Shown piece after piece: positions 2,422 through 28,636 of a stretch of DNA of 64,000 nucleotides (position 1 is its first letter; every line of letters starts with the position of its first letter). The DNA comes from an uncultured Pelagibacteraceae bacterium. GTDB lineage: Bacteria; Pseudomonadota; Alphaproteobacteria; Pelagibacterales; AG-422-B15. The notes beneath the pieces are model-generated. The model was given only the letters and a program-made list of their open reading frames with translations. It had not been told where the DNA came from and made no database searches. The DNA lies in contig CACGAG010000002.1 of NCBI GenBank assembly GCA_902571005.1, positions 1 through 64,000 on the forward strand, written 5' to 3'. Both the position numbers and the translations under genes were made by a program.

Positions 2422-3358
2422 TTTTCATTTTATAAAAAAGAGAAACTATAAGAGTGGTATAATCTAGATTTAATCTTTTAAAATAATTTCGATAAGTTTT
2501 AACAATTTCTGAGATTTTAAGCAAATTAAGAGCATCTTTTTCTTTTCCTTCTCTGGCCATAGACTTTACTTCGTAAGTCGTTAAAAGGTAGATATAATCA
2601 AAAAATATAGAAATATCGTCATCTTTACTAAATTTTTTTGAAATAAAATTAGAATAATGTGTTGCTGTATTTGATTTGATTAACTTACGATCATTTAATA
2701 ATTCTCTATAATGATTCTGAATTTCATATAGTTCATGATTTATAAAATTTTTTGAAAGACTCAAAGATCCATTAGTTAGATTGAAGAGGTCTCTATTAAT
2801 GGAAATATCACTGTTTAAATTTTTAAAAAATATTTCTTCGTTTAATTTAGAAAAATTTAAGAAGTAAGATCTTGATTTGATAGTTTGTAAAACTTTAGCT
2901 TTATTGTGATTTATGATTATGAAATGAGAATTTTTATTTGGCTCTTCTATTAATTTAAGTAGGGAATTACTGGCTTCTATTGAAAGATCGTCTATTGTTT
3001 TAATTATACATACTCTCTTTTGACCAATATCGTCTTTTGTTTGAAAAAACGTATGAACATTAGATATATCATCTCTATAGATTTGATTTTTAAATCTTTT
3101 TTTATCTTCTAAATATATTTTCGTAATCATATATATAAACGGTGAATTTATATGATTTTTATTTGAGCAAATATTAAGAAAATCTTCAAATGTATGAACA
3201 ATATTATTTTTAACAATTAATTCTGAAAACGATATCGCTATATCTGATAAAAGTTCGATTTCCCCTCCTGATAAAATAATAGATTGAGGTAAATTGTTTT
3301 TGTATAGACTGAAAAGCTTTTCCTTTTGGTTGAAATAAAATTGATCTAAACTGCTCAT
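2414..3358 (-). CDS. holB: DNA polymerase III delta prime subunit
   Basis: Gene context tmk-holB-metG; SLLKLIEEP motif of clamp-loader subunits. Confidence 0.85.
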   Translation of the reverse strand: MSSLDQFYFNQKEKLFSLYKNNLPQSIILSGGEIELLSDIAISFSELIVKNNIVHTFEDFLNICSNKNHINSPFIYMITKIYLEDKKRFKNQIYRDDISNVHTFFQTKDDIGQKRVCIIKTIDDLSIEASNSLLKLIEEPNKNSHFIIINHNKAKVLQTIKSRSYFLNFSKLNEEIFFKNLNSDISINRDLFNLTNGSLSLSKNFINHELYEIQNHYRELLNDRKLIKSNTATHYSNFISKKFSKDDDISIFFDYIYLLTTYEVKSMAREGKEKDALNLLKISEIVKTYRNYFKRLNLDYTTLIVSLFYKMKNV

Positions 3359-23165: not shown

Positions 23166-24668
23166 ATGGCTATTTTCAAAGAATATACAAATTATGATGG
23201 TTTGGGCATAGCCGAATTAATTAGAAATAAAGAAATATCCCCTATTGATCCTCTTGATAGTGCCATTGATCTAATTGAAAAACTGAACCCTAAATTAAAT
23301 GCAGTGCATCGTACAATGTATCACTATGCATTCGAGTCAATAAATAGAAACAAAGATTTAAATGGAACTTTTATTGGAGTTCCATTTCTTATGAAAGACA
23401 TGGATAGTTCTTTAGCTAACTATCACATGATGCAAGGCAGCAAGTATTTAAAAAACACTAAAATGCCTTACGACAATCACCTCACAAGACAATTTAGAGA
23501 AACTGGTGCTGTTATATGTGGAAAATCTGCAACACCTGAATACGGTCTCATGGTTACAACTGAGCCAACTGAATTCGGCCCAACGAGAAATCCTTGGGAT
23601 ACCAATAGAACGACAGGTGGTTCAAGTGGTGGTGCAGCTTCAGCTGTTTCAAGTCGCATAGTTCCTATTGCACATGCAAGTGATGGTGGTGGATCAATTC
23701 GAATTCCCGCAGCATCATGTGGTCTGGTTGGATTAAAGCCTAATAGAGCAAGAACATCATTCGCACCTTCTCACGGTGATAAATGGGGAGGCCTTACCCA
23801 CTCCGGTATTGTTTCTCGAACAGTCAGAGACACAGCTTATATGTATGATTGTTTGTTCGGAAATGTTGTGGGTGATCCTTATGGCATTCCATACAAAAAA
23901 GGTTCTCTTGTTGAAGCCTTGAGTAAAAAAAATAAACTTAAGATTGGATTTAATCTTAAAAGTCCTGTTGGAATTGAACCCTCACCTGATGCAATTGAAG
24001 CAATTAAATTCAACGCCAAGTTATGTGAAGACTTAGGTCACGATGTTGAAGAAATGAATTTCAGTTATGACGGACTTCTTGCTGCAAGAGCATTTACAAT
24101 AACTATATCCTCTCATGTAACCCAGATGTTTAATGAATTGAAAGATGTTGTTGGCAGAGGATTTAAGAAAAACGAAGTTGAAACTGCAACTAGACTATTT
24201 AATTATTTGGGTAAAAGTTTCAGAGCGAGTGACTACACTTGGGCACGATATACTATGCAAAAGATTGCTCGATCGGTAATGGAAGAAACTGATAAGTATG
24301 ATGTAGTCTTGACTCCTATCATATCTCAGAAACCTCCTTTGATTGGCGAGATTAGACCAAACAAACAAGCAAGTATTTTAAGTGAAATTATCATGACTTT
24401 AAAATTGGGTTGGGTATTTCGTGTTCAATCAATCAGAGACTCAATTCTCAATAACTTAGCACCTGAGAGTTTATGGTACTCACCTGATGCAATGCTTCAA
24501 AACATCACCGGGCAACCTTCAATTTCATTACCAACATATTGGACTAGTGACAGTCTACCTTTAGGCGTACAATTTGCATCAAGATATGCAGATGAAGAAA
24601 CATTAATCTCTCTGGCTGCACAATTAGAGGAAATATCTCCTTGGATTAACAAAACTCCAAATTTATAA
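23166..24668 (+). CDS. Amidase-signature family protein
   Basis: GGSSGGAASAVSS, DGGGSIRIPAASCG. Confidence 0.93.
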   Translation: MAIFKEYTNYDGLGIAELIRNKEISPIDPLDSAIDLIEKLNPKLNAVHRTMYHYAFESINRNKDLNGTFIGVPFLMKDMDSSLANYHMMQGSKYLKNTKMPYDNHLTRQFRETGAVICGKSATPEYGLMVTTEPTEFGPTRNPWDTNRTTGGSSGGAASAVSSRIVPIAHASDGGGSIRIPAASCGLVGLKPNRARTSFAPSHGDKWGGLTHSGIVSRTVRDTAYMYDCLFGNVVGDPYGIPYKKGSLVEALSKKNKLKIGFNLKSPVGIEPSPDAIEAIKFNAKLCEDLGHDVEEMNFSYDGLLAARAFTITISSHVTQMFNELKDVVGRGFKKNEVETATRLFNYLGKSFRASDYTWARYTMQKIARSVMEETDKYDVVLTPIISQKPPLIGEIRPNKQASILSEIIMTLKLGWVFRVQSIRDSILNNLAPESLWYSPDAMLQNITGQPSISLPTYWTSDSLPLGVQFASRYADEETLISLAAQLEEISPWINKTPNL

Positions 24669-25346
24669 ATTTTTATTCTTTATTTGGCTGTTGAAGCAGA
24701 AGGTAAGAGAAAAAATACTGATAATATGGATTATTGCTATAGATTTTTGCATTAATACATTTTGCACTAATAGTTCTTCATTCAATCTTGGATCACCAGA
24801 GTATATTTGATAAATTACATAGATAACGGTTGATATAAGAAAAATAATATTCACAACAGTATACTTATTGTCCGCATTACTTAGAAAAAAGGCTATTACA
24901 AAGAATAATGATGCTGGTACTAACCAACGAAATGCATTTATTGCAAAAAATACATGTGCATCTCTATATAAATCGTGCGGCGTTAGGGCTACTCCAGCAA
25001 AAAATACCATTCCAATGAAAAAAAGTACTGCTGCTATGCACGCACAAAAATACGAAACTTTATTTTCTGTAAATAATGATGGAATGAAAAAACTTGATAT
25101 TCCGACCAATAAAAAACAAAAAAGTGCGGAGTTAAAAAAAAATGATGAAATACTGTTAATATCTCCCGCAAATGTAATATACCCACCCAGTTCACTTAAA
25201 AAATTATGACTAAATGAATAACCAATTTGATCAGGATTATGTATGTTTCCTCCTGGAAAAAAATATGAAGCAATAATTACTGAGACAACAAAAAAAATTG
25301 ATACAAATCGAATGATATAGACTGTCCAAAATTTAGTCATTTGCAT
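24663..25346 (-). CDS. Six-TM DUF998-like protein, paralog 3
   Basis: FFPGGNIHNPDQIGYSFSHNFLSELG shared with two neighbours. Confidence 0.65.
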   Translation of the reverse strand: MQMTKFWTVYIIRFVSIFFVVSVIIASYFFPGGNIHNPDQIGYSFSHNFLSELGGYITFAGDINSISSFFFNSALFCFLLVGISSFFIPSLFTENKVSYFCACIAAVLFFIGMVFFAGVALTPHDLYRDAHVFFAINAFRWLVPASLFFVIAFFLSNADNKYTVVNIIFLISTVIYVIYQIYSGDPRLNEELLVQNVLMQKSIAIIHIISIFSLTFCFNSQIKNKNL

Positions 25347-26049
25347 TTTTTTTTCCTATTAACTTATCGAGGCCAAACGTAAACATGATAATTGTTGTAA
25401 TCATTAGAATAATCATCACCTTCTGTAACACTACATTAAATATCAAGAAATCCATTGTGTACGTTTCTAAAAAACGAACACGGTCATTTATTGCATCAAT
25501 CGGTTGAAAGTCACCAAGATAATAGGCATAAACTCCTACTGCAATAAAAAGTAGCACACCTCCTGACGCATAATAGTTTGATAAAGGACTAAATAAAAAA
25601 GCAAGAACATAAAAGAGAATTGCTACAGAGTATAAATTAAATGCCATAGTTGTAGTAAATAGATGCGCATCAAAGTAAATATCACCTGGTGTTAAGGCAA
25701 CTCCTACAAAAAAAACACAAGCCGGAAACATAAATAATGTTCCTAAACAAGCAAATATAAACGAGTAACGATTTACCCTAAATAAACTCGGAATAAACAA
25801 AAAAGCTATGCCTTGTAATAAGAGCATGTACATTGCAGTATTCCAGAAAAAAGATGAAAAAAAATTTAAATCTCCAGACATTGTTTTATGAAAACCAAGC
25901 TCACTAAGAAAATTTTTATGAAATGAATAACCTACTTGATCTAGTTCTATATGATTACCGCCAGGGTATAGAAGCATAGCAATGATTACCGCAAAAATAT
26001 AGTAAGCAGATGCAATTCTTGGGATATGTACACACCAGAATCTAGTCAT
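25333..26049 (-). CDS. Six-TM DUF998-like protein, paralog 2
   Basis: LYPGGNHIELDQVGYSFHKNFLSELG. Confidence 0.65.
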   Translation of the reverse strand: MTRFWCVHIPRIASAYYIFAVIIAMLLYPGGNHIELDQVGYSFHKNFLSELGFHKTMSGDLNFFSSFFWNTAMYMLLLQGIAFLFIPSLFRVNRYSFIFACLGTLFMFPACVFFVGVALTPGDIYFDAHLFTTTMAFNLYSVAILFYVLAFLFSPLSNYYASGGVLLFIAVGVYAYYLGDFQPIDAINDRVRFLETYTMDFLIFNVVLQKVMIILMITTIIMFTFGLDKLIGKKNAND

Positions 26050-26752
26050 TTAAAAGTTTCTTGTAACCAAATGTAAAGATCAGAATACTGATCATAGAAA
26101 TAACTGTAATTATTTTTTGCCAAACAACTGATATCGTGAATCGGTTGTAATCTATGAACTCTTCAACATTTTCCAATTCAAATGGATTGAAGTCAGGTGG
26201 AGGCTCACTTGTTTCAAAGATTGTATAAAGAGCGACATTTATAAAATAGATAAAAGCAACAATAGTATATCTATTACTTATTTTGCTCAGTAAAAATGCG
26301 ATTGTCATAAAAAAAATACCAACAGTTTGAGCGTTAAAAGCTAAAATAACAAACCAAACATGCTCTTCAAAATAAATATCAGCTGGTGTTAAACCAACGC
26401 CAATGAAAGATATTCCAGAAATAACTAATAAAATTGATGCAATGACTGAAATCACATAAGTTTTCTTATTCTCTCTAAATAAATTTGGTACAAATACGTG
26501 AGAGACAGCGCATAGTCCCATTATCAACAAAGAGCTGTTAAATAAAAAGCTTGAGAGAAAGTTCTGAGTGCCATCACGAGTAAATGTGATTCCCAAGTCA
26601 CTAAAAAAATTTCCACTAAAAGAGTAAGAATTTAAATCTGGATTAAATAAAGTTCCTCCAGGAAATAAAATCATAGCCGCGGCATTCGTTACAATAAAAT
26701 ATGCAATCATGAATCTAAGCGCATATACAGGAATATAGGCAAAATTTGTCAT
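26042..26752 (-). CDS. Six-TM DUF998-like protein, paralog 1
   Basis: LFPGGTLFNPDLNSYSFSGNFFSDLG. Confidence 0.65.
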   Translation of the reverse strand: MTNFAYIPVYALRFMIAYFIVTNAAAMILFPGGTLFNPDLNSYSFSGNFFSDLGITFTRDGTQNFLSSFLFNSSLLIMGLCAVSHVFVPNLFRENKKTYVISVIASILLVISGISFIGVGLTPADIYFEEHVWFVILAFNAQTVGIFFMTIAFLLSKISNRYTIVAFIYFINVALYTIFETSEPPPDFNPFELENVEEFIDYNRFTISVVWQKIITVISMISILIFTFGYKKLLND

Positions 26753-27202: not shown

Positions 27203-27613
27203 AACATAATACGCAGTTCCAAGAAACAATAACAACAAAGCAGTTTGAGAAAAAATCCAGATGGCACCTCTTGCTGAAGTATTATTGAAACAGATATGTA
27301 CAATGGAATGGATCACTCTAAATAATAAATATAACCATGCGCAAATTAGCAAAAAATTACTTTCAATTTCAATAAAAACGATGATCCCTATTAGAAAATA
27401 AAAAATAACTGAAAACTCAAATATATTTGAAATATTATTTTTTATAATTTTCAAATGTAGAGGAGCATCTTTATAAGGCTCAACAGGAATTCCACTTTCC
27501 TCCCAGTCCTTGCCTTTACCCATTAAATTAACTGATGCGATTGTATGAATTAATCCAATAACAAAAGTTAATAAAATAAGCCCAAGCGCTGGAACTAAAA
27601 TATTAGTTAACAT
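27191..27613 (-). CDS. MAPEG family membrane protein
   Basis: C-terminal WLYLLFRVIHSIVHICFNN MAPEG motif; start refined. Confidence 0.75.
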   Translation of the reverse strand: MLTNILVPALGLILLTFVIGLIHTIASVNLMGKGKDWEESGIPVEPYKDAPLHLKIIKNNISNIFEFSVIFYFLIGIIVFIEIESNFLLICAWLYLLFRVIHSIVHICFNNTSARGAIWIFSQTALLLLFLGTAYYVLSS

Positions 27614-28050
27614 CAGATCATTAAAGAGCAGGCTCGATAAGCCATCCACGCCAGGATAATCGTAGACGGTAACCAAAATAACGTTCTAACTGGCAAGGCA
27701 ACACCAGGTATGATTTTATTGTAAAATATGTGAACGATTGAGTGTAAAACTCTTAACCAAAAGAACCATGTTGCCAATAACATAAAATACTCATCGACTG
27801 TTCCCGTTACATAAATCATAATGCAAACCGCGTAAAAGAAGATTGGAAATTCGAATAAATTTGTCAAATTTCGCTGACTATTTTGAATTAATTCACTGCC
27901 GTTTTCAAATGTGGGTATTTTAAAATCATCTTCTGTATTCTTCTTATCGATGACAATAGCCTTAAGTCTGAGGACTGTCCCAAAGGCAAAAACAGCCAAA
28001 GAAAGCCATAGCATATTGATGACTGGCTCAAAAATTAATTCGGGTTGCAT
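27613..28050 (-). CDS. MAPEG family membrane protein (paralog)
   Basis: WFFWLRVLHSIVHIFYNK; start refined to ATG 28050 preceded by AAGGAG. Confidence 0.78.
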   Translation of the reverse strand: MQPELIFEPVINMLWLSLAVFAFGTVLRLKAIVIDKKNTEDDFKIPTFENGSELIQNSQRNLTNLFEFPIFFYAVCIMIYVTGTVDEYFMLLATWFFWLRVLHSIVHIFYNKIIPGVALPVRTLFWLPSTIILAWMAYRACSLMI

Positions 28051-28135
28051 AATAAACTCCTTGATTGAAATAAGAATCCAGTAAATTATATATACTAATA
28101 CAGTTTTAACCATATTTAATGAAAGGAGGTGGTCT

Positions 28136-28234
28136 ATGTCTATAGGTAGTATAGAGGAGCTTTGCTCGAGTAGTGAAATTCCATGTGATTGTAGATGTGG
28201 AAACCTCCACTTTTTGAGTGGAGCTCCGTTTTAA
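28136..28234 (+). CDS. Candidate 32-aa Cys-rich micro-protein on stand-alone transcript
   Basis: Not in ORF track; MSIGSIEELCSSSEIPCDCRCGNLHFLSGAPF after a very strong SD GAAAGGAGGTGGTC; own terminator. Confidence 0.5.
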   Translation: MSIGSIEELCSSSEIPCDCRCGNLHFLSGAPF

Positions 28235-28241
28235 CTACATT

Positions 28242-28270
28242 AAGCCCCCATTAATTTGGGGGCTTTTTTA
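28242..28270 (+). terminator. Rho-independent terminator
   Basis: AAGCCCCC-ATTAATTT-GGGGGCTT followed by T tract. Confidence 0.92.
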
Positions 28271-28636
28271 GATCTTTAAATTTGGTTTAAATTTTCTTGT
28301 TTTATTTTTGTCATTGATAGCAACGTAGGAAAACTCCCCAACCGCCACTTCAACTTCCTTTTGGTTCATTTCAGAACGCATCGCAGTAATTTTGAATATC
28401 ATTTTGGACTGCTTTACAGATACAATCGATCCGTAAACATTGATGAATTTACCAACATGCATCGGATTTTTATATTTAACTTTAGACTCAACTAATACGG
28501 CATTTCCTTTTGAAACAAGCTGAGTCATATAAATGCCTCCATGGGCCATTTGCTTTACAATCCAAGCTCCGTGAGCGGTGCCGTAAGGATTGCTATCCGG
28601 TGGTTGACATATATTTCTGATTAAAAGTTTACTCAT
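28268..28636 (-). CDS. Hotdog-fold acyl-CoA thioesterase-like protein
   Basis: YGTAHGAWIVKQMAHGGIYMT and SKVKYKNPMHVGKFINVYG. Confidence 0.75.
   Translation of the reverse strand: MSKLLIRNICQPPDSNPYGTAHGAWIVKQMAHGGIYMTQLVSKGNAVLVESKVKYKNPMHVGKFINVYGSIVSVKQSKMIFKITAMRSEMNQKEVEVAVGEFSYVAINDKNKTRKFKPNLKI

Follow-up and report, generated by a model that had tools for sequence, protein, structure and literature searches.

Why should a gene that encodes a peptide of only 32 amino acids, and that has both of its neighbours on the opposite strand, begin with a Shine–Dalgarno (SD) sequence of near-maximal complementarity to the 3′ end of 16S rRNA? The question is raised by a locus in a 64-kb stretch of DNA (64 000 nucleotides; the window) that lies within a 1.26-Mb Pelagibacterales assembly, the homologous records being Pelagibacteraceae AG-xxx single-cell genomes, with AG-422-B15 itself among them. 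The locus is an autonomous RNA gene at ~28097–28270 on the plus strand, in the Pelagibacterales family AG-422-B15. The SD, the ORF, an ACCTCC within it, a hairpin and a terminator, all described in the original prediction, were each found at their positions, and the description of a self-contained unit also holds, with the micro-gene on the plus strand and both flanking genes on the minus strand:

27613–28053, minus strand: MAPEG gene, flanking the micro-gene
28065–28092, plus strand: putative sigma70 promoter, TTGAAA-N16-TATATA, read by eye, in the same DNA as the TATATAAT −10 element of the divergent MAPEG gene
28121–28134, plus strand: extended SD (super-SD), GAAAGGAGGTGGTC, able to pair along the 16S 3′ end GATCACCTCCTTTC with one G–U
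28136–28234, plus strand: micro-ORF of 32 codons, MSIGSIEELCSSSEIPCDCRCGNLHFLSGAPF and stop, with conserved parts MSxxS and C-terminal GNLHFxSGAPx
28242–28270, plus strand: intrinsic terminator, stem 28242–28265 and T-run to ~28270, with compensatory changes between genera
28268–28636, minus strand: thioesterase gene, flanking the micro-gene

A consensus promoter scan of the window did not list TTGAAA-N16-TATATA; TTGA and ATTATAT are kept in the promoter region of all aligned genera. The two divergent promoters, as read by eye with the scanner negative, overlap at 28060–28100 (TTGAAA-N16-TATATA on the plus strand, TATATAAT on the minus strand for MAPEG), and the minus-strand leader on the MAPEG side, GATTCTAATTTCAATCAAGGAG, is kept across genera. 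The gene order MAPEG(−), MAPEG(−), micro-gene(+), thioesterase(−), VanZ-like(−) is conserved and is followed in nearly all loci by an SDR gene(+). Further upstream (24663–26752, minus strand) lie three tandem DUF998-like membrane protein paralogs, of which relatives have two or three copies at the corresponding site. One reading of this arrangement is a leader-peptide attenuator, in which read-through would occur when a ribosome close to the stop codon opens up the terminator next to it; the AG-422-B15 stop codon lies ~7–16 nt from the terminator, and ribosomes at such a distance repress terminators in E. coli (PMC4824070). We nevertheless regard attenuation as highly improbable, because in no genus is there a co-directional gene for ~750 nt downstream of the micro-gene, the next two genes both being antisense, and because in other orders the stop–terminator distance is often 25–66 nt, with an opposed gene as the usual next neighbour downstream.

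At the gathering threshold, Rfam gave a single match in the whole window, a tRNA, and the 6S RNA and tmRNA models gave no match at the micro-gene locus; alpha_tmRNA is present elsewhere in all seven genomes tested. In scans of whole genomes (G000, G059, G019, G060, G063, G062 and G037), the Rfam 6S model RF00013 matched neither AG-422-B15 nor a single complete genome of Pelagibacteraceae, with Caulobacter positive, and the 6S RNA of the scanned AG-422-B15 and Pelagibacteraceae genomes is thus absent or very diverged.

The 16S rRNA of the window's own genome ends in GGATCACCTCCTTTCT, to which the super-SD is complementary over 14 nt with one G–U pair, or over 15 nt with a second; elsewhere in the 64 kb of the window the best complement to the 16S 3′ end extends over 9 nt, which bears out the near-maximal complementarity first proposed. 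In seven genomes of the family, exact GAAAGGAGGTGRTC was found only at the micro-gene and/or opposite the 16S 3′ end. The family consensus, GAAAGGAGGTG[G/A]TC, is identical in all homologs except at the one G/A position, where pairing to 16S is preserved, and the start codon follows 1 nt past the super-SD in the window. Such features might be expected of a non-coding decoy that titrates or parks 30S subunits through the whole 16S 3′ tail, the ORF being incidental: the complement reaches within a base or two of the expected mature 16S end, and the one SD base change leaves the pairing intact. A pure decoy, however, would have no need of a constrained stop codon or of a start codon 1–3 nt after the super-SD, as found in every member listed of the wider family described below, and titration from a single-copy gene would demand very high RNA levels; we consider this function quite unlikely.

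A covariance model of the region located the micro-gene in 40 of 53 AG-422-B15 genomes, in all four genera and at one syntenic site, and all relatives with assembly coverage of the locus have kept the micro-ORF. The other 13 genomes were also without the thioesterase next to it, which fits gaps in their assemblies, by a thioesterase check that had no positive control. Diverged homologs (71–88% nucleotide identity) keep the ATG and the TAA, and indels are of 3 nt only within the ORF and of 1–3 nt outside it; the frameshifts and stops that had been named as counting against the prediction did not appear. For a within-genus pair, pS was 0.11 in the micro-ORF compared with 0.77 in the adjacent thioesterase, the thioesterase sequence being that of a sister genome in the same subclade. 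Between genera, pN was 0.30–0.37 and pS 0.29–0.68 in the micro-ORF, compared with a pN of 0.11–0.28 and a pS of 0.56–0.87 in the thioesterase. The comparison shows what is, at the level of sequence, a constraint on the RNA of the micro-gene beyond that on the peptide.

These data bear on the simplest alternative, an ordinary, strongly translated small-protein gene whose super-SD maximises initiation, whose peptide is functional and in which RNA folding is secondary. The retained start and stop, the in-frame indels and the C-terminal GNLHFxSGAP, invariant in the family, are all in keeping with it, but its synonymous sites are frozen as much as the protein, unlike those of the thioesterase. Taken together with the class-wide evidence given below, this makes a conventional small-protein gene rather unlikely, although it is the strongest of the alternatives.

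Within the family, the C-terminal GNLHF[LMV]SGAPx of the peptide is conserved, with the last residue varying between F, V, N and K. A degenerate DNA pattern for GNLHFxSGAP, searched across 85,462 species, matched Pelagibacterales records only and had no match in viral contigs, so the peptide motif is lineage-restricted; Pfam and NCBIfam scans of the peptides gave no match. The cysteines are lost in three of the four genera and, within the genus of the window itself, in the outlying member, so the proposed Cys-rich, CxCxC metal-binding peptide has to be given up. Neither is there support for a RiPP, the second peptide function suggested: a modification enzyme is absent nearby, where the neighbours are MAPEG, thioesterase, VanZ-like and SDR genes, and so is a leader/core pattern. 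We also rejected an arrest peptide ending in SGAPx-stop, there being no downstream gene to control, no motif of the RAPP, RAPG or SecM type, and a variable last residue. Fragmentary matches in family f2 (E 0.005–0.1) were judged to be chance on inspection in five genomes, and phage DNA similarity to the locus came down to terminator-like chance matches.

The predicted fold of the window unit (z −5.2) involves, in addition to the terminator, the following elements:

28146–28150, plus strand: 5′ strand of closing helix P1, GTAGT; the helix position covaries across Alphaproteobacteria
28156–28159, plus strand: 5′ strand of P2, GGAG, pairing with CTCC at 28224–28227; invariant and 100% paired
28197–28208, plus strand: bipartite internal anti-SD/anti-start, a predicted pairing; ACCT[CT]C is kept in all genera
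28205–28223, plus strand: P3 hairpin, CTCCACT-TTTTG-AGTGGAG, mutually exclusive with the SD pairing
28224–28227, plus strand: 3′ strand of P2, CTCC, pairing with GGAG at 28156–28159
28234–28238, plus strand: 3′ strand of P1, ACTAC, immediately before the terminator

In the bipartite element, GTGGA (28197–28201) is predicted to pair with TCTAT (28133–28137) and ACCTCC (28203–28208) with GGAGGT (28125–28130); together with P1, this pairing would form a pseudoknot. P1 is fully paired in 12 of 13 AG-422-B15 sequences, this 5-bp helix not being significant by itself in a single sequence, while in P3 a C–G pair becomes U–G in six sequences and loop positions vary. In all 11 sequences tested the native fold was more stable than peptide-preserving synonymous recodings (z −2.6 to −5.5). 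Because P1, P2 and P3 are nearly invariant in AG-422-B15, covariation within the family is confined to the terminator, where the structural check set by the original prediction was positive between genera; for P1, P2 and the hairpin, the family data are compatible with pairing rather than proof of it.

When Rfam was scanned at high sensitivity, the locus aligned at full length (model positions 1–159) with RF01867, CC2171, a Caulobacter sRNA family annotated as non-coding. The score of 22.0 bits is far under the gathering score of 75 bits, and the case for kinship is therefore based on shared architecture. The locus and CC2171 have in common GAAAGGAGGUGRUC, then 1–3 nt (2 nt in CC2171) and (A/G)UGUCU, a short ORF and a 3′ terminator, and the locus, like CC2171, is a free-standing gene ending in an intrinsic terminator. 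They differ in that the CC2171 ORF has 20–26 codons and that of the window 32, in that the window is AT-rich, and in the sequence of P1, which is GUAGU/ACUAC in the window and UCAUUGUCA/UGACAAUGG in CC2171. CC2171 members from many alphaproteobacterial families show TCAACAAY, the super-SD, 2 nt, [A/G]TG TCT, an ORF of 14–35 codons and an intrinsic terminator. The pattern of super-SD, 1–2 nt and [A/G]TG-TCT was present in 82 of 387 Alphaproteobacteria genomes, compared with none of the 387 for a reversed-pattern control. The same plan occurs in named replicons of Methylobacterium, Azospirillum, Sphingobium and Skermanella, where the PLSDB gene table, which is incomplete, lists no CDS over these loci. 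Neighbouring genes differ between orders. We found no description of a super-SD micro-ORF architecture in the open-access literature.

That the AG-422-B15 unit belongs to a class-wide family including CC2171 appears well supported by these shared features. The alternative is convergence, in which selection for maximal initiation yields the 16S complement and the gene of this SAR11 relative has an origin of its own. The sub-threshold score would allow this, as would mainstream Pelagibacteraceae, in which an exact motif search was negative in all 287 genomes. We nevertheless think it unlikely, because the TCT second codon, P1 at the terminator edge, the terminator itself, the ORF size class, the autonomy and, with less certainty, the internal anti-SD are common to both, and because the exact super-SD is unused by other genes in the AG-422-B15 genomes tested.

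Among 58 distinct class members, 91% have an ORF of 20–35 codons, compared with 21% in shuffled sequence. Because the SD, and in most cases an RTG-TC start, had been a condition for recognising a member, neither of these counts as independent evidence. For P1, an underpowered unrestricted search was replaced by a positional permutation test of codons 2–6 against the terminator-abutting segment, which gave 13.3 for matched and 9.8 for permuted pairs (z 8.9); this and the other class-level z values overstate independence, since the members are related. Compensated versions of the helix include TCATTGTCA/TGACAATGG, ATGAGATT/AATCTCAT, CATGAAT/ATTCATG and CGAGATC/GATCTCG, alongside GTAGT/ACTAC in the window. 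Anti-SD/anti-start pairing in the class ORFs was commoner than under dinucleotide, synonymous and codon-order nulls (mean z −1.26, −1.39 and −1.50, respectively). In the AG-422-B15 family it gave z −0.5 to −0.9, with p ~0.05–0.1 in two genera and no signal in two, so that the internal anti-SD originally proposed is significant for the class and merely suggestive inside the family. Comparison across orders thus shows, as far as sequences can, a common architecture, its conservation, covariation of P1 and a constraint on ORF length. The constrained length would also suit a small-protein gene, for which there is a precedent in two Caulobacter RNAs that were predicted to be non-coding and turned out to be translated, although they are not said to include CC2171 (PMC4117421). 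Against it stand the covariation of P1 across the class and the peptides of different orders, which have only Met-Ser in common (some MSHCH).

We favour, as the probable reading, a translated small RNA able to occlude its own SD, with a conformation set by ribosome capture; its chief competitors are the plain small-protein gene and the 30S decoy. The family plan would be an autonomous RNA gene of ~150–190 nt with its own promoter region, super-SD, Met-Ser micro-ORF, P1, terminator and anti-SD. With the SD 5′ of P1 and the anti-SD enclosed by P1, closing both would give a pseudoknot-like fold; because the 3′ strand of P1 is made last, at the terminator, a 30S subunit could reach the nascent SD, which emerges first in transcription. 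Capture would lead to translation of the micro-ORF and hold the RNA open, whereas without capture the anti-SD and P1 would close, hiding the SD and start codon and leaving a folded small RNA. We infer from this geometry that ribosome availability may decide between translated and folded RNA. The peptide is hardly conserved between orders while the SD, start, length and P1 are strongly constrained, which suggests that what counts is being translated, more than which peptide results. A bolder extension, which we hold only tentatively and think more doubtful than not, is a vertically inherited, class-wide RNA switch that would read free 30S subunits by setting the 16S-tail complement against the anti-SD and terminator-anchored helix, with a largely arbitrary translated sequence and translation itself as the signal. 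Of the functions first suggested, a dual-function sRNA and a ribosome-interacting RNA survive.

A comparable case is rnTrpL/peTrpL of S. meliloti, a dual-function small RNA (PMC10117765; PMC7298713) that combines a translated micro-ORF with an intrinsic terminator, as the window gene probably does. The leaderless rnTrpL RNA has its origin in a trp attenuator, whereas the window gene is free-standing and would initiate through its super-SD. Cryo-EM of the S. aureus aur mRNA revealed an extended SD initiation site with only two extra pairs (PMC13009471), similar in having an SD helix beyond the canonical length and 16S pairing near the start codon; in the window the pairs number 14–15, are contiguous, stop 1 nt short of the start codon and are confined to one gene of the genome. 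SD-sequestering cis-regulatory RNAs resemble the unit in that its predicted internal anti-SD could occlude the SD and start, but here there is no gene downstream for it to regulate, the anti-SD is part of the micro-ORF itself, and closure would be through the terminator-anchored helix.

Ordinary initiation hardly accounts for a 14-nt exact complement of the 16S 3′ terminus that a single tiny gene of each genome uses and that is conserved throughout a class. If the switch model were true, the gene would be a small, naturally occurring device for sensing how available ribosomes are, in organisms as different as Caulobacter-like bacteria and streamlined marine ones; even on the plainest reading, unannotated translated micro-ORFs spanning the class would lie within an RNA family catalogued as non-coding. 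Pelagibacteraceae, which are without the exact motif, and the sister family AG-422-B15, which retains it, offer a natural comparison.

The super-SD also occurs in other settings. At three loci in some Alphaproteobacteria (L162, L165 and L201) it precedes a protein of 56–58 residues with a signal-peptide-like N-terminus and no micro-ORF. On one viral contig (L238; IMGVR_UViG_3300024344_003354, ~2607–2627, minus strand) it is followed by a very Cys-rich 35-residue ORF, MSSCNNPDCECDHCVCEDCSCSPDNLCPETCRTSN. Five IMG/VR contigs (L239, L240, L241, L249 and L254) carry versions of 14–16 residues, MSxxKRCHLA...AR, each with a TCACCTC complementary to its own SD and, in the four with enough sequence, a terminator at the end. 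Lastly, in four near-identical viral contigs (L247, L248, L251 and L253) the super-SD stands before a gene of 135 codons, MSTALVHLAIQSALAALTP..., so the full 16S complement also serves ordinary phage gene expression.
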